A stretch of DNA of 64,000 nucleotides, from contig OZ004583.1 in NCBI GenBank assembly GCA_963924555.1, forward strand, positions 4,931,501-4,995,500, given 5' to 3'. Origin of the DNA: Crambe crambe. Its lineage: Eukaryota; Porifera; Demospongiae; Poecilosclerida; Crambeidae. The position numbers and the translations under genes were made by a program. Below the pieces are notes generated by a model. The model was not told the DNA's origin. It did not search any database and saw only the letters and a program-made list of their open reading frames with translations. Numbering within the stretch: position 1 is the first letter of the stretch; each line of letters opens with the position of its first letter. Positions 11,471 to 48,735 of this stretch are shown piece by piece.

Positions 11471-11984
11471 TCACTTCTCAACCAAATGTGCTTCATCAAC
11501 AGCAAGACAGACAAGATTGTTCTGGTAGGTGAGGGTATGAAACATATCTCTCCAATGAGTATGAGACAGCACGGATTCAGGGCTAAGATAAACTAACTGC
11601 ACATCACCATTGAGAATGTCATCACAATTAACCTCTGCACCCCCCACATAATTATGCCACTTTCAATCCCTTAGTCCTAAACTTCGATACCTGGTCATCC
11701 ATTAATGCAGTAAGTGGAGACACAACAACAGTAATACTATGATGACTTGATAAAGCTCTTAGTTTATCAAAAGCTAGGGGGGTTGAAGCAAAACAGACAT
11801 TTTTCCCACTCCCTGTAGGTAAGGAGACGAATACATTTCTGCCACTAACGAAATTCATGACGTCTAGCTGTGGTTGTCTTGGCTTATCGTACCCTAGTTC
11901 CTTGATGCTCTCAAAGATCGCTCTTTCCATAAATTCCTTCGGAAAGGTCAGTCCCAAGCGAGGAATACTTATTACCTCCGCCAT
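11471..11984 (-). pseudogene. RecQ-like DNA helicase, N-terminal half (remnant)
   Basis: A start codon at 11984 opens 110 codons carrying the front of a RecQ/SF2 helicase: a Q-motif-like PRQPQLDVM, Walker A LPTGSGKN (the final S/T is N), and motif Ia with LTALMDDQV. After a short break the frame resumes with LVYLSPES and the DEAH box in CLAVDEAHLVEK. It then stops at a TGA where family members have W. The C-terminal helicase half is absent. A functional copy would unwind DNA 3'-5' using ATP; this one is broken. Two other RecQ-like pieces occur in this window (15198-15330 and 37621-38761), both within or beside transposons, so I infer a mobile-element rather than a host origin. Confidence 0.75.
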
Positions 11985-13795
11985 TACATCAGCGTCACAT
12001 GACTAGGCTATATTCACCTGACCATCACGGGAATTTTCACCTGCAGTGCTTCTGATTGGTGTAACAGAAATCGGAAACTGCTGAGTCAGCAGGCCCCAAG
12101 AATTGCACCATAGATATTAGACACGGAACAGGATTGGAAACTTAATACTACCATGCGCGTGCTATCCGTGTTTGCCGGGAAATTTTGGCGCGAGATATGA
12201 ATGCATAGTTACCACATAGTTAAGGATGAGTTCTGCAAAAGATATCAGAGCGAATATTAGTTTAGTAGCTTAATATTAGCTGGACTAGAGTGTTTCCATG
12301 TTGTGCTTTTATAAAAATTTAATATGAGACTAGATCTAGCTAGATAGTATAAATCTATGAGAGATTCAGTATCTCAAGTTTTGAAAGATGAAGAGTTTAG
12401 TCTTCCTCTCCAGCCATCTATAGATGCCCGTTCTTGTGCAGAGAGCTTTATGAAGTGGATAATAAAACATGATAATGCAAATAAATAATAGAAATGTAAT
12501 AATAATAACTATTTAACCCATAGTTTAACACTGCAACCAAAAAAAAAACTAACAGCTATGAATCAATACAACATTATATCATCCGATCGACAAACTATTA
12601 TACTACTAAAAGATACCAAACGCTTGACTTCTAAATTTATATGAGTCCTGTTCTAGTCCCACAAATTGGTAGGCCTATAAAATCTTTAGCAACATATCCT
12701 ACACCAAAAACAGTTATTACACTCTTTATTTCAGTCTATTCCAGTAAGAAACTTTACCTTCCAAACTTCTATAGGATAAAATTGCAAGAAAAACATTTGT
12801 ACTCGTAGCTCTAGTCCCACAGTCTGTACTTCTCTTCCTCAGAAAATGTATTGCGACAATAGGGCTAAATTTTCTATGGTTACAACGCGGATAGCATGCG
12901 CGAAATGTATTAGGTTAATGGGAGCATAGATACTATAAACTACGTGTACGGGATTGGAAACCCGCCCCCGCATCCGTATATGGCAATGTAATTCATCCTT
13001 GTCCGAGGTTTCCTAGATAAGTTAGTTTCCTGTTTTGGCGAATTTCGCGTGTTCTACGCATCCCAAGTTCATCTCCAAAGGAGGAATAGTTCCTGCGGTG
13101 GATTAGCAAGGTAACTATGCAAAGCTTTTACACGAAAGAGTTGCAGAAATAGTTCATAAACTCTAGTTACCGTGAAAATGGCTACTTTTTTGCATGTTAG
13201 TAACATTAACTTGCCTAGAACTCACAGTGAACAGTAATGACAATGAAAATTAGTTGGAGAATAGTTTCTTACATGTACTTAACCATATTTTAAGTCATGT
13301 AATACTATTACATTCAGCAGAGTGAACAATTTGGATGAAAAAAACCAGTTCAACTGTAGTAACACTTCCTACATTACTATTAGCTAAAATGCCTACCACT
13401 CTACTGAAAGTGGTAGAGCAATGCTTACCATATGTACCTGTAACAAGCTTTTGATCCTAGAGAAAACAGTTAATTTGTTACACTTTTTTGAAAATGACTA
13501 TTATTAAAATTGAATTATAGCTATGAGTCAAAGAAATGTATGTATTCCAATGCTAAAAGACAGCAACAGTCTCACAGTGCTAGTGATGATTGGGTCGAAT
13601 CTGCAGAGATGTAAAAGAGGCAGAATTAGGGGAGATAATCATTCAGAACATCTTGTTAATGTGCATGGGAGAGTATCTATTCCTGTTATATTAAAATGGC
13701 ACCGTGTACTATATTCTATGGCACATAGGGTATAATAAAAGCTGTGGATTAAACCTCTCCTATCGATGGCACACCACACATCCATTCCTCCGATT

Positions 13796-35559: not shown

Positions 35560-36395
35560 TGTCACGCAGTGGATAGTCCCCCGTAGGCGTAGTACCCCCG
35601 GTTCCAATTTTTCAGCGCATGCGTGAAGTACCGGTTCCGCCAACGAAGTACTTGGACCTCCAGCTGCAGCTGCTGGTGTGAGAAGAAACGAAGAAATGAA
35701 TGAGTCGAAAGATGATATTTTGGATCTTGCTATTGAGTATGCTGTCAGAGGTTGTTACAAGGATGGTCTTTCTAAAGACAAAAAGCGAGCAGTTCGTAAA
35801 AGGGCCAAAAAATCTAATTGTTGAAAAGGGAGAAGTGTATCTAAGAAGAAAAGGTGGCACTGTAAGTTATCTAAGAAGAAAAGGTGACACTCTAAGTTAG
35901 TAAAATTAGCTACTCAAATTATACTGCTCACTCCATAATTAGTTGCTTGCTCCCCCTCCCAACCAACTTTATACACTTCATGCATTCTTGTTTTATCACT
36001 ATGCATCATGTAGGTGAAAGTAATAACAGGAGTTAAAGATAAAAAACGAATCTTGAAGTCATGTCACTTTGGCATAACCAAAACATGGCGTAGGGTTGCT
36101 GAGAGATTTTACTGGAAAGGACTGTATCAAAATGTAGTGGAATTGGTAAGTTTCATTCCTCCTCCTTTCAGCCCCAAAAATAATAATAATAAAAAAAAAT
36201 AATTGTGGTAACTTTGGAACATTTTATGAGCATGCTCAGTATTGTGTTTTGTCCATCTAGCGCATTGCGCTATAGCTCTTAGCTCAACCTCTGTATCACT
36301 TCCAGTCACTGGCTGATTTGATCTGATTTTTGTCACTTAGTTACTGTTGGCTAGTTATTGCTAATTAACATTGTGATACTATTGGAGAACATCAC

Positions 36396-36466
<71 letters not shown>
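36396..36466. repeat. (AAT)n microsatellite
   Basis: About 23 uninterrupted AAT/TAA units within the intron of the Ginger-type integrase gene. Confidence 0.95.
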
Positions 36467-36467
<1 letters not shown>

Positions 36468-36934
36468 GAGATAAAAATGTGCATTCTAGGTTGAGCATTG
36501 TCATATTTGCCAATCAATGAATAAGAGAATCGAAAGAGTCAGGCCTGAACTCCATCCTGTTCCAGTTAAATCTCCATGGTTCCATGTGGGAATGGATTTC
36601 ATTGGACCTATTTCTCCACCATCATCTTCGGGTAATAGGTATATACTTACCATTTCGGATTATTTCACAAAATTTGGATGGGCAAAAGCTCTACCTACAA
36701 AAGCCGCTATTAATGTCGTCAGTGCTCTACGAGAGGTAAGCAGTAATGGCTTAATACACTTGATATTAAATATTTTCTTATAATTTTATAGTTAAAGATG
36801 TATGTCCCGTCAGTGGCCTTCAAAAAGTCTGCTGTGGACTTACATTATCTTTTTCAGTTCAAACCTCTGAGTTCTTACAAATATTGAACACTGGCAATGG
36901 TCACTGGCTTCTTGTGTCAACAATAGGCACTGTA

Positions 36935-37016
36935 CATCCTACTGTATATGTATATGATAGTGCATATCCAACAGTCATCCTACTGTATATGTATATGATA
37001 GTGCATATCCAACTGT
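36935..37016 (+). repeat. 41-bp tandem duplication breaking the Ulp1 frame
   Basis: 36935-36975 and 36976-37016 are the same apart from one base (CAACAGT versus CAACTGT). Forty-one is not a multiple of three, so the protease frame is lost. Confidence 0.9.
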
Positions 37017-37620
37017 CAGTACTTTCGTTGAGAAGCAGATTGCTTGCTTGCTTTCTTCAGAAGAAAAAGAAGTTGACCTGCAATTTATCAATGTTCAGAT
37101 GCAGTATGGACAATCAAATTGCGGCATGTTTGCAATTGCTTTTGCAACTGCTTTAGCCCTTGGCCATCAGCCTGAAGGTTACCATTTCACACAAGATGAA
37201 ATGCGTCCTCATTTGCTTAAATGTTTTTCAGATAAAAAGATGGTGATGTTCCCATATGATAAGACTCGTAGGGCTTAACTCGGGTGAAAAACACACAAAA
37301 ATTTTCTTTATATTGTTTCTGTCGGCTCCCAAAGTTTGAGAAAATGATCGAATGCTCACGTTGAGTTAACATCTTAGGAGTAGCTTATCAGCTATAAATA
37401 ACCTCTGAGTCAAAACTTTATTATTCACCATACAGTGATATACAGAAGTGTATTATAGCAAGTTACTTCACTCGTAGGCTATATATTTTACTTGCCTTCA
37501 GCTCATAAAAGTACGGCCACGTGCCCTACTCGAACTCGTGAAATAACTTACCATATTCCACTCTGACTCGTGTAATAAGATAGTATTACATACCTATGTA
37601 GGTACTCAATCCTATTACAC

Positions 37621-38761
37621 ACAAGTTGCCGATCATCTTGGACAGCTAATTGGAACCAGCAGAACAATTGTGTACACCGATTTTGTGAAGGATGTAGCAC
37701 CTTTGGCTATAGCTCTACGTGAGAAGGGAATAAAAAGTTGGAGCTACCATGGCAAGAATATGTCTACACATGACAAGGTGAAAGCTGTGGATAACTGGTG
37801 TCCTGAGGACTCAAGTATCCAGGTAGATAAATCACTATCTTTATTATAATAATGAATGCTAAATAATCGATATTGTTGAATACTCAGGTCATGGTGTGCA
37901 CAACTGCATTTGGGATGGGAGTTGATGTGCCCAATGTAGATGTCATTATCAGGATTGGATGTCCCTCATCACTCGAAGAGTTAGTCCAGGAATTTGGGAG
38001 GGCTGGTAGAGATGGTCGCAAAGCAAAAGGTCAGCTTAATGTGTGTTACACAACATGTATGTATATAATATATTGTATTGTAGGAATTTTGCTTTTCAAT
38101 GAAAGTGATCTACAGCATGCACTGTATTGGTGCAAGGACAAAAGTCAAGAATACCAGCAGAGATTATTAAGCGATTTCCAAGCTGTCTGGAGGAAAAATT
38201 TTCCTAAACCAAACCAGATTTAATTGATGTTTTTATGTTCTTTTAATTAGATATGCACTAGCAAATCATTATGGCAAATGCAGACGAAGCATTATTTTGG
38301 AACATTTTGATGAGGATTTGCCTGAGAATCAAGTGGAAGTATTAGATGAATGCTGTGATGTATGCTCCCAGTCAAGCTCAGTTGAAATGGTGGATTGTTC
38401 ACATGAGATTAAATCCATTATTCAAGCAGTCAAGGACAGACCCAACAAAGGAGAAAAGAAGGTAAGACATCAATGTGATATCTGTAGTGTGAATTCATAA
38501 TATCCACAGATAGCAGAGTGGTTACGTGGCTATGCTGGTAGTTCATCAGTGAGGAATTTCAGTGATGAATCTTCATCTATCAGTGAGGAGTCATCTCTTG
38601 GTGTTGGAGCTCATCTCCATCTGACAGAGACAGAATGGAGATTACGTGTCCGCCAAGCATGGCTGATAGGGCTTCTTGAACGAACCATGCAGCTTGGCTT
38701 TGGTTATGGTCGTATCAAGAATATGATTTTCAACTCATACAGTCTCACAGAAGCTGGATAA
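37621..38761 (+). pseudogene. RecQ-like helicase, C-terminal half, leading in frame into a MULE transposase
   Basis: Exons at about 37621-37822, 37888-38029, 38084-about 38216, 38251-38461 and 38510 onward, most with clean GT-AG borders. Motifs: RTIVYTDFVKDVAPLAIAL (motif IV), MVCTTAFGMGVDVPNVDVII (V) and QEFGRAGRDGR (VI). The zinc-binding subdomain follows with KCRR..L..FDE and ECCDVCSQ, then a winged-helix-like segment ending IKNMIFNSYSLTEAG. The next codon is TAA (38759), and after it the same frame continues into the MULE part. The N-terminal ATPase lobe is missing upstream, where a Ginger copy ends. One donor (after 38216) is not convincing. Confidence 0.75.
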
Positions 38762-40715
38762 AAGTATGCAGTAGAATCACATTCTGTTGAACTGCCAAAG
38801 CTCAGAAGCAACATGAAGTCTGCTTGAGTTCAGACTGACAGCTCTCCAGATGCTACCAAACACACCAGACAGAGCAAAGGGACACATCTTCTCCCTGTCT
38901 TTACTAAACTTCTCTCTTCCAAGGATAACTGGTACATAATTGAACAAAATGAGGATTATCACTTTCCAGGAAAATTTTGCTTACCATATCCTCATCGTCT
39001 TGGATTTGTACCTGACATAACCACCCTCTCATTCTATGTCAAGGATGATGAACACTTTCTGTTCAATGACATACAGATAGGCAAAGGCAAATCAAGAGCT
39101 GCACGAAAGGTGCTTCTATCAGTGGATGGGAAGGAGGAAGAACTCTACTACCATATAGCACCATGTGGAGGAGCTAAATATTGTCCAATTGAAGGTTGTT
39201 CCTTCACTATATCCACTAGGGAACACCGAGGATGCCCAGATCACCCAGATTCTCACTTGACTCTTCAAGAATGTCAAGTGGAGTTCGTTTATGTCTGGCC
39301 TGAAAAAGATGAAGACAAGAGGAGGTGGCTGTCAGGTATACTTAGAAGAGGGACTATGGAAGCAGATAATCTCCACAATCACCCTCTCCATGGCTCTACC
39401 AAAGTACCATCTAAAGTAGTACATGATATCCAACAAGCTTTAAAACTAGATCCAACTCTGAAGACACATGATCTTATGACTGGTGAGTATCTGATAATTA
39501 TTATAAGCTAGATTTCCATCTAGTGAACACATCTGCAGGTAAAGGAATGCCATACATGCCAGTAGCTGCTTCATTCTCAGCAGCACATAAAGGACGGATT
39601 CAGAACATCAGAGCTGCTACCCTCAGAGAAACTAAAGAAGAAAGAAAACCTGGAGTTATCTTGAATTTTGAAGATGAAAGTGTTCGCTACGACAAAAGCC
39701 AGAAGGAGCACTTGGGATACTCAGGTATGAAGCATGTTGTTTTGGATACTATGAACAGCTTCCACCTTACTTCTATTGAAGCCCTCACACATGTTATATA
39801 TCTTTCAGAACATATGGAAGAGTATTTTGAACTTGGGCATGAATACATTTGTGATTACTCCCTCAATCCTTCTTACACATGGGTCTTGGCAATGAGTCCA
39901 GTAATGGCTGGCATTTTGAGCAAAGCAGAATGTGTTGAAGTGGATGCAACATTTAGAGCTTCAATTGAACTGGAATACCTGCAGCCAAGACCAAGAAAGA
40001 TGTAGAGTCCTTATTTAGAGTTCTGTCTGGAACTGAGCCACTCTCAGTAGCAATCAGTGTCTTGCCCAATCCATCAACATTGAAGGAATACGAGTCCGAG
40101 CACAAAATGGAAAATTGGGAGCAGTGTTCGCATTGGTGTGAGTGGTGGATGCGACCAAACCACCTCAGTAAGACAACACTAGCTACAGTATGTATATGAA
40201 AAGCATAGGTGATCTTAAATAGTGATGTTATGTGGATGCCACTCATCTATGGATCGTCAGCAATTTGAAGAACTCCCAACTTCTACAAACGCTGTTGAAT
40301 CATATAATCGTTTTGGCAAACACAGACAGCCTCTCAAGGTAGCCATGATGGCCACTTACAAAGAGGACATGGCCAAAACATGGCCAGAAGACAGGGTCTC
40401 ACAACCAGCTATGATAATCAGTCAACTAGTGCACGTGCCAAGCGTTCATCCCAACAAAATCGTGCCCGCCAGAAACGTCTCCGAAGTGAGAATGATGATC
40501 CTGAAGGACCCCCAGATACAAAGAGAAAGTTTTTTCCAGGTAGCTATTTTTGTATAATTTATAATCATACCATGGTCTAATTTCAATATTAGCTGCACAT
40601 TTTCCATGCATTATTTTAGACATGTATTGACAGGTATGTACTGTGTATACATGTAGGTGACACACTAGGTAGATCTACAAGCAAAAAACTAAGCCTCCGA
40701 AACAATGATTCAAAT
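38762..40715 (+). pseudogene. MULE-type transposase region, same frame as the RecQ part
   Basis: From 38762 the RecQ frame reads on through one TGA (38825) into KGTHLLPVFTKLLSS and FCLPYPHRLGFVPDI, and to a cysteine/histidine region (CGGAKYCPIEGC, REHRGCPDH, LHNHPLHG). An intron at 39483-39538 joins MTG to KGMPYMPV. The transposase core shows AECVEVDATFRA, a MULE first catalytic Asp. At about 39985 sequence is missing and the frame shifts; the expected middle of the core is gone. Later pieces read WCEWWMRPNHLSK and LPTSTNAVESYNR, typical MULE C-terminal motifs, then a basic tail. MULE transposases cut and paste DNA with 8-9-bp target duplications. This copy is dead. Confidence 0.65.
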
Positions 40716-41121
40716 TCCTCTGGTAAGTACCTGCTCAGTGATTAATGTGATGCCAACATAACTACGGTTTAGCATATCTTTGCTTTTTATGTTTGCTCTT
40801 TCTTTATTAATTCCTAACAGCTCAAATGATTACTAATGACTGTCCATCACCAGAATATAAATGGTGGGTCAAGGAACTGGGCCTTCAGGAGTCTGAAAAA
40901 TCCAAACTCAAAAACAGAGAGGAGCTAACTGACTTACACATGAACGCAGCAATTGCACTCTTCAATCGACAGTTTGAGGCTATGCCAAAGATGCTACAAA
41001 CTATCATATTCCAGAAGCCAGATAAAGTGAGCAGGGCTTTGGACAATCACATTCAAATTCACTTCACCAATGGCCATTGGGTGGTGTCTCAACTACACGA
41101 AGGGACAGTGAACCTATATGA

Positions 41122-41285
41122 TGTGGAATAAGTTGACTTGTATTTTTATTATATTTATTGGTTATCTTTTGTGAGCATGCTCAGTAGAATATTGTAGAGG
41201 TCACCACGTGTTTTTTACATGTCACCTTTTGAGTCACACCACTTGTAAGTCAATCCAGTCTTATTGAATAAGAGCTTTTACTACA
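41122..41285 (+). repeat. 5' LTR
   Basis: Begins TGTGGAATAAGTTGAC and ends GAGCTTTTACTACA. It is directly followed by the primer-binding site. Confidence 0.95.
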
Positions 41286-41303
41286 TGGTGTCAGAAGTGT
41301 CTC
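41286..41303 (+). promoter_or_regulatory. Primer-binding site, tRNA-Leu type
   Basis: TGGTGTCAGAAGTGT directly abuts the 5' LTR. It is complementary to the CCA-tailed 3' end of a metazoan tRNA-Leu (TGGTGTCAGAAGTGGG expected), a known primer for gypsy-type elements. The tRNA match is from general knowledge, not a search. Confidence 0.7.
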
Positions 41304-41310
41304 AACGAGA

Positions 41311-44300
41311 ATGGCTTGTGTAAGACTACAAACCCCGGCACCGTTTTCCTTCCGCCATCCAGATGAATGGCCTAAGTGGAAGAGGAGATTCGAGCAGTTT
41401 CGCTCAGCATCTGGTCTGTCCTCTGAAGAACAGGAGAGGCAGGTCAGCACCCTTCTATACACTATGGGAGAAGAAGCAGACGACATTCTAACGTCCACAA
41501 ACATAACTCAGGAGCACAGGAAGATCTATGACCGGGTCGTAGCAAAGTTCGATGCTTTCTTCCAAGTGAGAAAGAACGTTATTTTCGAGCGTGCCCGTTT
41601 CAACCGACGGAGCCAAAACAACGACGAGTCAGTCGAACAGTTTATCACTAATCTCTATCAGCTAGCCGAGAATTGTGCCTACGGCGAAATGAAAGAGGAG
41701 ATGATCAGGGACCGTATCGTAGTCGGCATCAGAGACACAGGGCTCTCGCAGAGGCTACAATTGGATGCGACTCTCACCTTAGAGACGACTAAAAAGATGG
41801 TGAGGCAACGTGAGGCAGTACAAGAACAGCAAGAACTGATGAAAGCGGGATTTAAGCCAAAGTTACCCGTGGATGCTGTCAGGTACAAGCCAAAGGTCAA
41901 TGTAAAGCAGTCACAATCTAGTACCAAAAAGGTCAATTTCAATTTTAAATCGAATAAATGTTCAAGGTGTGGTAAAGGGCCTCATCCCAAACAACAGTGC
42001 CCTGCAAAGGATGTTGTATGCCATTCTTGTAAAAGGAAAGGTCACTATCGTTCTCAATGCTTTTCAAAGAAGGCAGTTGACGATGTTACAACACCTCAAG
42101 AACCTCAAGACGATGTACCAGAATCAGAGTACTATGACACAGCTTACCTTGATGTGGTCGATGAACCAGAAGGGAATAGCAATTCGTGGAGAGTCATAAT
42201 AAAAGTGAATGGCCAAGGGGTCAACTTTAAGATAGACACAGGAGCTGAAGTCTCTGTAATTACCGAAAGGACTATGGACTCTCTGAAGCTCAATCGCAAG
42301 CTATCCCGAGAGACGACGAAGCAGTTGATGGGAGCTAACAAGACCCAACTAGAGGTTATTTGTGAGTTTGTAGCTTGTCTGGAGTACAATGGTAGAAAAG
42401 CCGAACAGCCTATTTATGTTGTGAAGAAGCTACAAAATGACCTTTTGGGTTTACCTGCAATTAAAGCCTTGAATTTATTGGCACAAATTGACTCTATTCA
42501 AAAGAGCATACCTGATCAGTATCCTTCACTATTTGAAGGTTTGAGAACCTTTAAGGGGGAGTACCGTATTGAACTCAAATCAGGTGCTAAACCTTTCGCA
42601 TTATTTACCCCGAGAATTGTTCCCCTTCCTCTGAGAGACAAAGTTCATCCAGAACTTACCCGCATGGAAACACTAGGAGTGATTTCAAAAGTTGAGAAGC
42701 CCACAAGTTGGTGTGCTGCAATGGTGGTCGTACCTAAAAAGTCGGGATCTGTTCGTATTTGTGTTGACTTCCGACCCCTCAATGAAAGTGTATTAAGGGA
42801 GGTTCATCCTATACCAAAAGTAAATGAAACCTTAGGTCAACTTGCAGGAGCTGCTGTATTTAGCAAGTTAGACGCAAATTGTGGTTTTTGGCAAATTCCA
42901 TTAGAAGAGCACTCACGAGATTACACCACCTTCATTACTCCATTCGGGAGGTTTCGATTTAACAAGTTACCATTTGGGATTGCAAGTGCTCCCGAGCATT
43001 TTCAGCGCCGCATGAACCAAATGCTGGCAGGGTTGGAGGGAGTGCTTATACACATGGACGACGTTCTGGTGTATGGTAAATCCAAGCAAGAGCACAACCA
43101 AAGGCTCCATGCTGTCCTTGAGAGAATTCGTGAGAGAGGTGCTACACTGAATAAAGACAAGTGCGAGTTTACAAAAGCAAAACTTCACTTTCTCGGACAT
43201 GTTATTGGGAGTGATGGAATGTCACCTAACCCTGCAAAGACAAAAGCAATCCTGGAAATGGAGAAACCAAAGACGGTGACAGAGCTGCGGAGATTTATGG
43301 GGATGGCTAATCACCTTGGGAAATTCAGCCCCAACTTATCAGAGTATTCACAACCCCTTCGTGAACTCCTTACTTCAAAAAGAGTATGGATGTGGGGAGC
43401 AGCTCAGGACGAAGCATTCATCAAGATTAAAGGAGAACTTACTAAACCAACAGTTTTGTCATTATACGATCTGAATGCTCAGACAAAGATTCGTGCTGAT
43501 GCTTCAGCCTATGGGCTGGGTGCAGTTTTATTACAGTACCACCCACAACAGCAACATTGGAAGCCGGTTGCATATGCTTCGAAGTCTTTAACAGAGACTG
43601 AGAGGCGATACTCTCAAATAGAGAAGGAGGCACTCGCTCTAGTATGGTCATGTGAGAAGTTCTCAGATTACATAATCGGGAAAAAGATCGAAATTGAAAC
43701 TGACCATAAACCACTAGTTCCTTTGCTGAGTCATACCAGCCTGGACAGGTTACCACCAAGAATTTTACGATTCAGATTACGCCTAACCAGGTTTGACTAT
43801 TCCATATCACACGTTCCTGGAAAAAGTTTATATACGGCAGACACGCTGTCTCGTGCTCCGCTACCCTCAGCAGATCCAGTATTTGAAGGAGATGAGGATG
43901 TGGAAAATTTTGTGCAAGCTATAATTCAACAACTCCCTGCTAACAAAGATCGATTAGAGCAGTATCGGAAAGCACAGCAAGATGACTCACTCTGCTCTCA
44001 AGTTATCGGCTATACCAAGTCAAAGTGGCCAGCAAGACACACAGTTAAAGGAATCCTCTCGAAGTATTGGGCCGTGAGAAATGAACTCACTGTTAGTGAC
44101 AGCCTCTTACTCTACAGGAGGAGGATAGTCATACCTTCGTGCTTGCAACATGAGACACTAGAAAAGATCCATCATGGTCACCAAGGTATACAAAGATGTC
44201 GTTTACGAGTGTCCAATTCAGTCTGGTGGCCGGGTGCATCAAAAGCAGTTGAAGAGTTTGTGAAATTGTGTCCTACTTGCATGAAGACTACACCACCACC

Positions 44301-45192
44301 AGTGGAACCACTATTACAACCAGAGCTACCCAGTCATCCATGGGAACGAGTAGCTGCAGACCTATTTCAGCTGAGTGGAGTAGTTTACCTACTTGTGGTA
44401 GATTACTATTCAAGGTACATGGAAATTCAGAAACTTACCTCAACATCATCAGCAAGTGTGATTGCTGCGTTAAAAGCTATATTTTCACGTCATGGAATTC
44501 CGTCTGAGTTTGTGAGTGATAATGGTCCTCAATTTGATTCACGTGAGATGAAGGAATTTGCAGCCAGTTACAATTTTACTCACACAACTAGTAGTCCACA
44601 TTACCCTCAGTCTAACGGCTTGGCTGAACGTATGGTGAAAACTGTGAAAGAGCTAATTGGTAACTCACCTGATCCATATATGGCCCTGCTCAGCTACCGA
44701 GCTACCCCACTTCCGTGGTGTGGACTAAGTCCAGCTGAGTTGCTTATGGGGAGATGTCTTCGAACAGATGTTCCTCAAGTCAAGAAGCATTTTATTCCTA
44801 AATGGCCACACATCAAAGATTTTAGGGAGAAAGACGAGAAACACAAATCGGACATGAAACATCATTATGACAAGCGTCATAGAGTACGTGAAACATCACC
44901 TCTCCCTGACAACACAGATGTATGGATTAACACTCAAGGTAGAGAAAATATACCAGGCCAAGTTATACAAAGGGCTGAGGAACCCAGGTCATATCTGATC
45001 AGCACGCCATCAGGGGAAGTTCGGAGAACTAAAAGCCAAATTAGAGTACGTGCAAAAACCACCAGTGTACCAGAGTCAGAACTCGCCCTTCCATCATCTA
45101 CCACTCAGACATCTCGAATTGCCACACGTTCACAAACTGGAACTGTTCTACATCCCCCTGATCGATATTCAAATTGGGTTTACACTGACTGA
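41311..45192 (+). CDS. Gag-Pol polyprotein of the Ty3/gypsy element (1293 aa, single frame)
   Basis: The start at 41311 is 26 bp after the LTR. Domains in order: a gag capsid-like region; two CCHC zinc knuckles (residues about 217-250, both C-x2-C-x4-H-x4-C); an aspartic protease with IDTGAEVSVI (about 307); reverse transcriptase, whose active site reads HMDDVLVYG rather than the usual YxDD (about 582); RNase H with RADASAYGLGAVL (about 727); and integrase with its zinc-binding region (HHGHQGIQRC, CPTC, about 952-990) and the D-D-E core (AADLFQ, SDNGPQFDS, NGLAERM). Gag and pol are fused without a frameshift. No env-like frame follows. All recognisable catalytic residues are present, so it may still be active or was until very recently. 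Confidence 0.95.
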   Translation: MACVRLQTPAPFSFRHPDEWPKWKRRFEQFRSASGLSSEEQERQVSTLLYTMGEEADDILTSTNITQEHRKIYDRVVAKFDAFFQVRKNVIFERARFNRRSQNNDESVEQFITNLYQLAENCAYGEMKEEMIRDRIVVGIRDTGLSQRLQLDATLTLETTKKMVRQREAVQEQQELMKAGFKPKLPVDAVRYKPKVNVKQSQSSTKKVNFNFKSNKCSRCGKGPHPKQQCPAKDVVCHSCKRKGHYRSQCFSKKAVDDVTTPQEPQDDVPESEYYDTAYLDVVDEPEGNSNSWRVIIKVNGQGVNFKIDTGAEVSVITERTMDSLKLNRKLSRETTKQLMGANKTQLEVICEFVACLEYNGRKAEQPIYVVKKLQNDLLGLPAIKALNLLAQIDSIQKSIPDQYPSLFEGLRTFKGEYRIELKSGAKPFALFTPRIVPLPLRDKVHPELTRMETLGVISKVEKPTSWCAAMVVVPKKSGSVRICVDFRPLNESVLREVHPIPKVNETLGQLAGAAVFSKLDANCGFWQIPLEEHSRDYTTFITPFGRFRFNKLPFGIASAPEHFQRRMNQMLAGLEGVLIHMDDVLVYGKSKQEHNQRLHAVLERIRERGATLNKDKCEFTKAKLHFLGHVIGSDGMSPNPAKTKAILEMEKPKTVTELRRFMGMANHLGKFSPNLSEYSQPLRELLTSKRVWMWGAAQDEAFIKIKGELTKPTVLSLYDLNAQTKIRADASAYGLGAVLLQYHPQQQHWKPVAYASKSLTETERRYSQIEKEALALVWSCEKFSDYIIGKKIEIETDHKPLVPLLSHTSLDRLPPRILRFRLRLTRFDYSISHVPGKSLYTADTLSRAPLPSADPVFEGDEDVENFVQAIIQQLPANKDRLEQYRKAQQDDSLCSQVIGYTKSKWPARHTVKGILSKYWAVRNELTVSDSLLLYRRRIVIPSCLQHETLEKIHHGHQGIQRCRLRVSNSVWWPGASKAVEEFVKLCPTCMKTTPPPVEPLLQPELPSHPWERVAADLFQLSGVVYLLVVDYYSRYMEIQKLTSTSSASVIAALKAIFSRHGIPSEFVSDNGPQFDSREMKEFAASYNFTHTTSSPHYPQSNGLAERMVKTVKELIGNSPDPYMALLSYRATPLPWCGLSPAELLMGRCLRTDVPQVKKHFIPKWPHIKDFREKDEKHKSDMKHHYDKRHRVRETSPLPDNTDVWINTQGRENIPGQVIQRAEEPRSYLISTPSGEVRRTKSQIRVRAKTTSVPESELALPSSTTQTSRIATRSQTGTVLHPPDRYSNWVYTD

Positions 45193-45202
45193 GAAGGGGA
45201 GA
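45191..45202 (+). promoter_or_regulatory. Polypurine tract
   Basis: GAGAAGGGGAGA, twelve purines directly before the 3' LTR; it overlaps the last base pair of the gag-pol stop codon. Confidence 0.85.
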
Positions 45203-45366
45203 TGTGGAATAAGTTGACTTGTATTTTTATTATATTTATTGGTTATCTTTTGTGAGCATGCTCAGTAGAATATTGTAGAGGTCACCACGTGTTTTTTACA
45301 TGTCACCTTTTGAGTCACACCACTTGTAAGTCAATCCAGTCTTATTGAATAAGAGCTTTTACTACA
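45203..45366 (+). repeat. 3' LTR
   Basis: Same 164-bp sequence as the 5' LTR, followed by the second TATGA target copy. Confidence 0.95.
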
Positions 45367-45757
45367 TATGACAGTCTCAATGCTACTACAATTTCTGCTA
45401 ACCTATCTGAGCAGATACAAGCCCTTTACTTCAAGGGAGCTGGTTCTGGTAGTGTCAGTCTCATCCCAGTCCAGAAACAGCCAAATGTGACAGATTGTGG
45501 ACTATATGCCATAGCTAATACCACATCATTAGCATATGGGGAGGCTCCTGAAAAGAATTTGTATGATGAGAAAGAAATGCGGGACCACCTACTCTCCTGC
45601 TTTGAAGCAATGGTTCTCATTTCATTCCCCACTAAAAGTAGAAGTAGAAGGAAGACTAAATCAATCGTACTGTGTATTTAGTATTAGTGACATTAATTAT
45701 TAATTTGAATGCATAGTGTATTGCTTCAGGTTTAAAGTACTCCCTGTCATTAAATAG

Positions 45758-46090
45758 GTGCACCTTGCACTAAAGCTTCTCTATATTATTGTAGGAGAGA
45801 TTTAGTGCACCTGGCACTAAATCCTCCCTATATTATTATAGGAGAGATTCAATGCACCTGGCACTAAATCCTCCCTATATTATTATAGGAGAGATTTATG
45901 GCACTAAATCCTCCCTATATTATTATAGGAGAGATTTAGTGCACCTTGCACTAAAGCTTCCCTATATATTGTAGGATAGATTTAACATTAATAATAGTGC
46001 TGTATTCCACTAGTAATATAGGAGAAATTTAGTGCCACATGTCACTAAATCTCCCCTATATATTATAGGGATTTATTTCATTTAGTGAAA
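45758..46090. repeat. Array of hairpin-forming tandem repeats
   Basis: About six units of roughly 45-60 bp built on CACTAAATCCTCCCTATATT ... AATATAGGAGAGATTTAGTG, so each unit is itself an inverted repeat around a TATATTATTATA-like centre. Unit lengths vary and the last ones degenerate. It lies just after the Ulp1 stop. Confidence 0.85.
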
Positions 46091-46607
46091 GTTTATATAT
46101 GCCCATTCACTCCAAGAGTATGTAAAGTGACTTGCAGCAGAGCAGAAATTATATTTCAAGGGATGCCTCTGGCCATACTGAACAAATGCACATCACATAT
46201 AGATGGTACCAAACTGAGACTGTCTGGTCATTGGGGAATTGGATTTACAAGCGGTCCATTCATGATGCATGATGCACAGATCATGACAGGTTTCATGTAG
46301 TGTTGTTTGCAAAGGTCGGAAGAACAGGTTCCATGTAGTGTTGTTTGCAACCAAAACAAACACTGATATTACCTTGAATGGTCACCCGAGTTTTCCAAGT
46401 ACACATCATTATGCATGCAATCAAGTTTGCCCACTACTCTTACTATTGCCAGCAACTCCAGGATATAGCTATGACACAGCAAGAAATGGATCCATTTTGT
46501 TATACTGCATGCATTCACTTGTTGCTGTGGAAAGGCTATGATTAGCATCCCTTTATTCTATACTGGTATACCAGTTTGTCCCTTAAGGCTTTACCACAAA
46601 ATGATGT

Positions 46608-47673: not shown

Positions 47674-48735
47674 AGTGCTATAAGGGAAAAAGCATTTCGT
47701 GAAATGAAAAAAGATGTAGGGATGACCACTGCTCAAAAAAGTAAGGAAACAAGAAGGATGGAAATGGGATCAATCTTTGTTCTGTATATCCAGCCAACAA
47801 TCCCTACATATACGTACATTACTACACTATAATCTGAAGTTACCCGACATATATGTAGGGATTGTTGGCTGGATATACAGAACAAAGATTGATCCCATTT
47901 CCATCCTTCTTGTTTCCTTACTTTTTTGAGCAGTGGTCATCCCTACATCTTTTTTCATTTCACGAAATGCCTTTTCCCTTACTTGTTCCTGGTCTTTTTT
48001 TCCTCTCTTTTATGGTTTTAGCTATGTATAAGAGTTCATTCTTCTATGCAGGGACAGATGAAAGAAGAATAGCACAGCAGCCCAATCATATTTATCAGGA
48101 GTCAAGGTGTAGTGTTATTGTTGAGCTATACTTGGAGGTCGAAGATGCTGAAATAGAGTCTACCGTGGTGAATCTAAATCCCCGAGTCGATACAGTAGTC
48201 TATCATCATTATCTAGAGCTAGCTAGAGACAGCTGAGTAATATTATAATTTCGAATAATTGGATATCAAATACATGCGCATGCGTATTATAGAAAAGATG
48301 GCTTCCTAATTGAATTAGTCGAGTGCTGTGCTCCGTAGTGTCTCCTTTTTCATCGACTCTTTTGAGGATCAACGAGTAGAAAAGATCGTAGTTCGTAGAA
48401 TTTGGAGTGGATTTATCCAGAAATAATAGCTGTAGCTTGAGCGGTTCGAGAGATATGGTTGTCTAAGAATAATAATAATAATAATAATAGAGAAGAAGAA
48501 GAATCCAGTGATTTACTTGCTTGCCGTATTTCTGAAACGGTAAGCTCCCTGGTCCTGTAACTTGGTCTACACATTGTAGTAGGCTCTAGTAGGCTGGATA
48601 ATCATTCACAGTAGCTTTTGTTAGGTCTAAGTGGGGGAACTAGAATTTCACTTTTGTATTAGTCTATAGGCGGCGCACGCGGCCGTCTGCGTCATCCCTA
48701 CATAGAGAGTGCTACCGCACTCTCTGATATGGTAG
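47674..48735. repeat. 1-kb interspersed repeat, copy 2 (inverted relative to copy 1)
   Basis: Begins with the foldback (about 47674-47985, arms around AAGATGTAGGGATGACCACT) and ends with the 22-bp hairpin at 48714-48735. The whole is the reverse complement of 1511-2540 with a few differences (for example a longer foldback arm and an (AAT)n instead of a TTC-rich tract). One arm has a long open frame (47862-48236) only because of the repeat; I do not call a gene. Confidence 0.8.

Follow-up and report, generated by a model that had tools for sequence, protein, structure and literature searches.

A 64,000-nucleotide stretch of the genome of the sponge Crambe crambe (assembly GCA_963924555.1, contig OZ004583.1, positions 4,931,501 to 4,995,500 of the forward strand; called the window below) holds the remains of a transposon in which a RecQ helicase and a DDE transposase appear to be joined in one reading frame and are followed by a Ulp1 protease domain. 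The window copy is a 5′-truncated, decayed transposon copy, and its parts are listed in Table 1. Its bounds, 37361 and 46104, are the start and end of homology to two other copies in the same genome, C17:6750913-6758320 and C8:3680911-3687886, to which it is 98.3% and 95.3% identical, respectively, over the longest piece. The N-terminal half of RecQ was lost along with the 5′ end, and a short terminal inverted repeat is present at the 3′ end.

Organization of the window copy

The RecQ region is colinear by tblastn with P0001, the protein of an open 1479-codon frame at C18 described below, and with the database relative P0003; Pfam Helicase_C was called with 45.8 bits for positions 37867-38220. 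The RecQ/RQC frame of 38501-38758 closes in LTEAG, and beyond the TGA the same frame is open to 39511. As this frame is continuous apart from two stops, the exon 38510-39482 spans the RecQ-transposase junction, and the original prediction was right in reading it so, with only TAA 38759 and TGA 38825 in the way. The stretch 38249-39493 crosses the junction in one alignment to P0003 (E 2e-73, linked set), and the window pieces align in order with distant relatives.

Downstream, the damage is greater than had been supposed. A transposase core with the VDATF motif had been predicted; the motif is present and the core is not complete, since the deletion of about 690 bp removed the second catalytic Asp. 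A frameshift lies between TNAVE and the GPPD tail of the window copy, with none in C8. The Ulp1 domain at the gene end was correctly read with its His, Asp, Gln and Cys (NGHW...YD...VQKQ...DCG), and has to be corrected in that its exon is split by a Ty3/gypsy-type retrotransposon. This insertion has a single open gag-pol frame of 1306 amino acids (aa) with RVT_1, rve and RNase H; its long terminal repeats (LTRs) are identical (167/167) and the insertion is therefore recent. The array of ~47-bp repeats near the 3′ end is inverted relative to the 5′ arrays of the C17 and C8 copies.

Table 1. Features of the RecQ-transposase element in the window (positions of the window)
Feature	Position	Strand	Remark
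Whole window copy of the RecQ-transposase element	37361..46104	+	5′ end lost, 3′ end intact
RecQ helicase C-terminal half and zinc-binding region, several predicted exons	37634..38461	+	Helicase_C; tblastn
Fusion exon, RQC-like domain of RecQ into transposase N-terminal region	38510..39482	+	One frame but for TAA and TGA
In-frame stop TAA	38759..38761	+	Not in C17 or C8 copies
In-frame stop TGA	38825..38827	+	Not in C17 or C8 copies
Transposase exon with first catalytic Asp (VDATF, ~39943-39945)	39540..39976	+	Matches D1067 of P0001
Deletion joint, ~690 bp of transposase core gone	39971..39977	.	blastn gap against C17 9715-10410 and against C8
Transposase C-terminal region, TNAVE motif (Glu codon ~40297-40299) and GPPD tail	40236..40539	+	
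Small predicted exon, in-frame link of transposase tail to Ulp1 exon	40657..40722	+	GT-AG borders, matching phases
Ulp1 (Peptidase_C48) exon, first part, catalytic His	40821..41121	+	Domain called in unsplit C17 exon
Ty3/gypsy-type LTR retrotransposon inside Ulp1 exon	41122..45366	+	5-bp duplication TATGA
Ulp1 exon, second part, Gln and Cys; gene end	45372..45681	+	
3′ subterminal array of ~47-bp repeats; 3′ end ...TATATATGCCC	45760..46104	.	
Presumed 3′ copy of 9-bp target duplication	46105..46113	.	Position equivalent to TCAAATTTC (C17) and GCGTAGAAA (C8); 5′ partner lost

Copies of the window element (family 1)

A 1255-bp probe of the fusion matched at least three places in the 143-Mb genome, namely the window, C17:6753963 (99%) and C8:3683735 (96%), which we call family 1. 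The C17 element of 7408 bp is bordered on both sides by TCAAATTTC and the C8 element of 6976 bp by GCGTAGAAA, each a 9-bp target duplication. The RecQ-transposase joint is open in both, within 336 codons in C17 and 150 codons in C8. Both carry sense codons at the two stop positions, so that among the three copies the stops are private to the one in the window. The first exon of family 1 encodes a B-box finger barely above the Pfam cut-off (24.8 against 24.1 bits).

A second family with an open frame

The 218-aa transposase piece of the window gave eight matches at six loci, namely the window, C17, C8, C18:2944997, C8:7565783 and a relic on C3. The C18 and second C8 loci, 32-33% identical to the window piece, form family 2. 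RecQ or RQC sequence lies directly upstream on the same strand at six of six loci; at the C3 locus these are only remnants, judged by eye from frames plus a 182-bp DNA match.

At the C18 locus, one uninterrupted frame of 1479 codons encodes, in order, ubiquitin-like, B-box-like, RecQ, RQC-like and transposase parts. Its RecQ motifs are PTGSGKS, DEAH, LTATA and GRAGR. The ubiquitin-like domain ends in LALKGG and matches a ubiquitin variant in the PDB (E 7e-5); Pfam ubiquitin was not called in P0001 and was called with E 5e-13 in the database relative P0004. The B-box-like finger was assigned by alignment with P0003, which is itself below the Pfam B-box cut-off. No ATG precedes the ubiquitin-like domain in the frame, so the start should lie in an upstream exon. 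An intact copy had been proposed as a check, and this frame answers it for the RecQ motifs and the transposase, which stand together, and not for Ulp1, which Pfam did not call in it.

Inverted repeats of some 440 bp, 96% alike, bound the C18 element (C18:2942557-2950118), which carries the 9-bp target duplication CTGGTAGAT and interrupts a frame that by eye resembles a reverse transcriptase. When its flanks were joined, the genome gave 23 matches, four of which (100, 100, 97 and 91%) span query positions 53-400 and with them the joint; other matches, of 67-71% identity, cross it too. Judged from these alignments, the four paralogous empty sites demonstrate that the element inserted cleanly with a 9-bp duplication, and the identity of two of them suggests a recent event. 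The duplications at C17, C8 and C18 thus bear out the predicted DNA transposon with 9-bp target duplications and a RecQ-DDE fusion. The sister element on C8 (~7561310-7568834) is 97% identical to the C18 element and has frame breaks; a 9-bp duplication was sought at its flanks and not found. The C18 terminal repeat as genome query returned both family 2 elements and two partial matches elsewhere, and with so few matches family 2 is a low-copy element.

Two predicted exons of 77 and 407 bp with GT-AG borders were also observed upstream of the C18 frame (L033 minus strand, ~8358 to 6840). They join the RecQ-transposase exon in frame and would add, ahead of the ubiquitin-like domain, a signal-like hydrophobic start and a hydrophobic stretch of some 20 residues. 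The hydrophobic upstream exon had no match in Pfam or PDB, the C8 sister copy has a stop in the second of the two exons, and no sign of constraint was seen in the hydrophobic exon between C18 and C8 (three amino-acid differences by eye, one of them the C8 stop). In each protein of alignment A1 that extends far enough, namely P0001 (93-98), P0003 and P0004, the ubiquitin-like domain closes right before the B-box-like finger, with LKGG in P0001 and LLGG in its two relatives, and these ends resemble the processing site of ubiquitin-like precursors. A far-fetched reading of these exons and LKGG ends would make the transposase a membrane-tethered precursor that is freed by cleavage at these ends through a ubiquitin-like-specific protease, of the sort present as Ulp1 in family 1. 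The element would then fall outside Academ, as a relative of IS256/MuDR that is coupled to a helicase and possibly replicative.

RecQ part and database relatives

P0001 scored 314.7 bits against the NCBI RecQ family model TIGR00614 (cut-off 219.8), which 12 of 13 family members match, and stayed below the bacterial RecQ equivalog cut-off (309 against 640). The family profile matches WRN and E. coli RecQ, and the DEAD/DEAH and Helicase_C core, the zinc-binding domain and RQC that define a RecQ are all found in the family. At E up to 1, the zinc-binding domain was seen in 12/13 members and RQC in 8/13; P0001 falls short of the zinc-domain cut-off and has no RQC call.

With P0001 600-1300, from RQC to transposase, as query, 12 proteins of 43-62% identity were found among the 7990 candidates scored, those sharing most words, and helicase or RQC domains are present in all 12. 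The parts of the window copy are separated by stops, a deletion and an insertion, as they would be if a RecQ pseudogene merely lay beside a transposase pseudogene by chance or in a local chimera. Such an accident is extremely improbable in view of the same order at all six loci, the single frame in family 2, these 12 fused proteins and the location of both parts inside repeats with 9-bp duplications. The local-accident reading was rejected through the other copies: helicase and transposase are adjacent at six of six loci and share one frame of 1479 codons, so the separation elsewhere that the original prediction had allowed for is not seen at these loci.

Catalytic core and affinity of the transposase

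The first catalytic Asp (D1067 of P0001) is D in 54 of 56 alignment rows. The DDE core carries an all-helical insertion and, between the second D and E, a CxxH motif with C in 50/50 and H in 49/50 of the rows that have letters there. According to the part of PMC9587614 consulted, a C/DxxH motif is common to the MULE/MuDR, hAT, P, Kolobok, Dada and IS256 superfamilies. Among the 25 of 27 Pfam families listed, the only DDE families were Transposase_mut (4/56 members, best E 0.05) and MULE (PF10551; 2/56, best E 0.093), and none of these MULE matches was significant. When 54 of the 56 aligned cores were compared as a profile by hhalign with nine MULE frames from the sponge genome, the probability was 61% (E 8e-5), against 0.2% for a reversed and 0.1% for a column-shuffled control. 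A structure was predicted for a 371-aa core with 56 rows, replacing a 546-aa piece with 10 rows (pLDDT 61.9); within the listed fold families, to which the fold comparison was limited, its top match was ISCth4, with Hermes tied. We take ISCth4 to belong to the IS256 family and this to be linked to MuDR.

The MULE-type label of the original prediction therefore survives in part. CxxH, fold and profile comparison put the transposase in the MuDR/IS256/hAT/P clan, where it is only distantly MULE-like; there was no significant Pfam match, and none of the six element loci was among the 54 matches of a MULE-model search of the genome. A genuine MULE (MuDR) lineage, unrelated to Academ and with an independently acquired RecQ, would account for the CxxH after the second Asp, the 9-bp duplications, the hhalign result with its low controls, the two Pfam families and the ISCth4 match. 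We regard it as unlikely, though worth keeping in view, on account of the missing family match, the six loci passed over by the MULE model, the tie of Hermes with ISCth4 and the fact that a helicase lineage with 9-10-bp duplications already bears the name AcademH.

Ulp1 tail

Peptidase_C48 was called in the C17 copy (22.3 bits, cut-off 20.7), and the two window halves are singly under the cut-off (no match and 14.9 bits). Two GT-AG introns lie between the conserved transposase tail and the Ulp1 exon, and in the window copy the tail, the small exon and the Ulp1 exon join in one open frame. By splice phase, Ulp1 looks like part of the same gene as the transposase in family 1 only; the predicted single gene holds to that extent and was not found in the relatives.

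A remnant of the integrase type with an H2C2 zinc finger lies directly upstream of the RecQ element (window 36014-37275, plus strand) and also ends in a Ulp1-like domain, with H2C2 integrase in place of RecQ-DDE. It is reminiscent of Ginger elements. The two Ulp1 domains are 37% identical over 99 residues, which makes a transfer of the domain between elements of different superfamilies probable.

Substitutions and constraint

Comparison of the family 2 elements on C18 and C8 over 1458 codons, with those holding gaps or stops excluded, showed 17 non-synonymous and 11 synonymous changes (ratio 0.40). By part the ratios were 0.26 for RecQ, 0.33 for the transposase and 0.77 for the ubiquitin-like and B-box parts, each on single-digit counts. 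The fusion exon of C17 against C8 gave 8 non-synonymous and 6 synonymous changes (0.39). A stronger argument than these ratios is the long conservation of the fused chain across both families and the database proteins.

Interpretation

The locus is probably best explained as the damaged remains of a low-copy DNA transposon with a single gene that encodes a RecQ-DDE transposase fusion. Two points are read directly from the sequence, namely movement that leaves a 9-bp duplication and the presence of the RecQ and DDE catalytic sites in a single predicted chain. Several observations speak against this explanation. None of the three family 1 copies is intact, and the fusion there is read from open pieces and splice phase. 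A transposase-only query found 62 proteins, 7 with a precomputed helicase or RQC domain and 55 without, in a length-gated search that favours fragments and excludes full-length fusions; of eight such matches inspected, five extend into RQC and three begin inside the transposase. The frames of C17 and C8 are open through both transposase-Ulp1 joints and then broken inside the Ulp1 exon, and the family 1 transposase-Ulp1 query found one relative, in which Pfam gave no Ulp1 match. Substitution counts are small overall, and C17 against the window copy gave 7 non-synonymous and 1 synonymous change (2.0), a ratio that fits decay of the window copy. Foldseek alone had no match at E ≤ 0.001, the best being foamy virus integrase at 3.4e-3. 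A role of the helicase in transposition is, finally, something that we infer.

RecQ enzymes are 3′-5′ DNA helicases. With most cut-and-paste transposons, it is the host that has to repair the sites of excision and insertion. In the RecQ-DDE fusion, the DDE part may cut or nick the element ends and join them to the target at strand positions 9 bp apart; RecQ, being covalently linked, may open the joined or excised ends or gaps, and host repair or replication would finish the event. Copying instead of cut-and-paste is conceivable from the resemblance to ISCth4. The accessory parts differ between the families, Ulp1 standing behind in family 1 and the LKGG-ending ubiquitin-like domain in front in family 2, with a B-box or B-box-like finger before RecQ in both; as a guess, they might tune ubiquitin- or SUMO-type control of the protein. 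The Ulp1 and ubiquitin-like parts hint at transposition that is linked to ubiquitin-type control.

A transposase with its own RecQ in one chain is a natural test of whether the helicase sets the duplication length or promotes copying. For such a test the family 2 element is well suited, having an uninterrupted frame of 1479 codons and identical empty sites. An effect of the helicase on duplication length has been suggested for AcademH as against AcademX in a portion of PMC10045372.

Other observations

The original prediction also mentioned a RecQ fragment inside a family of miniature inverted-repeat elements (MITEs) with 9-bp duplications. This was not confirmed in a check that, as no MITE coordinates had been given, covered RecQ fragments detected by tblastn with two transposon proteins. 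The window showed only one other such fragment (11652-12002, minus strand), which is present in a single copy. It is a DEAD-helicase of RecQ type that looks unlike the transposon RecQ; only some 134 bp next to it are found again, at C15:16250 and C1:7032456. At window 47681-47981, two nearly perfect 135-bp arms of an inverted repeat enclose a 31-bp loop. At L037 908-4891, a MULE-type transposase follows a long proline/threonine-rich repeat region within one open frame of 1328 codons.

Comparison with known systems

A helicase-carrying lineage of Academ DNA transposons, AcademH, was reportedly described by Kojima in 2020 (Mob DNA 11:15). As far as the accessible sections of the papers go, RecQ is the helicase named for Academ (PMC3627910), AcademH makes duplications of 9 or 10 bp and AcademX of 3 or 4, a difference tied to helicase versus nuclease (PMC10045372), and AcademH occurs in animals and fungi, with low copy number in fungi (PMC10045372, PMC10799480, PMC3627910). 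For the AcademX comparator, an XPG_I search of the sponge genome gave 3 matches.

KolobokH has RecQ downstream of the transposase and is found in fungi only, and Kolobok makes 4-bp TTAA duplications, according to excerpts of PMC9587614. A RecQ accessory enzyme and a CxxH-clan DDE transposase are shared with the present elements, whereas these have 9-bp duplications of unrelated sequence, an N-terminal RecQ and an animal host, which makes membership scarcely credible; KolobokH was ruled out by duplication type and domain order.

Likeness to MuDR/MULE and IS256 lies in the 9-bp duplications, the CxxH and the remote profile and fold similarity, and long target duplications with terminal inverted repeats, a trait of MULE/MuDR, are present in the elements here; the difference is that the transposase had no significant family match. 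In the portions of open-licence literature covered, we found no description of a RecQ-carrying MULE, nor of a RecQ transposon with Ulp1 (as in family 1) or a ubiquitin-like part (as in family 2).

The elements resemble AcademH in carrying a helicase, here a RecQ by its TIGR00614 match, in their 9-bp duplications (TCAAATTTC, GCGTAGAAA and CTGGTAGAT, the third with empty sites; none at C8:7561310) and in their animal host, a status borne out by 14 Pfam wnt matches in this genome as against none in any of 14 control genomes. One sign is discordant, the CxxH, as Academ is missing from the lists of CxxH superfamilies in the parts of PMC9587614 and PMC10045372 at hand. AcademH entered the comparison by its description in these sources, which covered neither the transposase sequence nor the one-protein arrangement and the Ulp1, ubiquitin-like and B-box parts. 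Helicase-carrying DDE transposons are already in print as AcademH and KolobokH, and the element is not new in kind. Since accessory enzyme, duplication length and host agree, AcademH is the likeliest filing; with moderate confidence, and by these three features rather than by alignment of the transposase, we assign the sponge elements to the AcademH type, or else to an unplaced lineage of the MuDR/IS256 clan.

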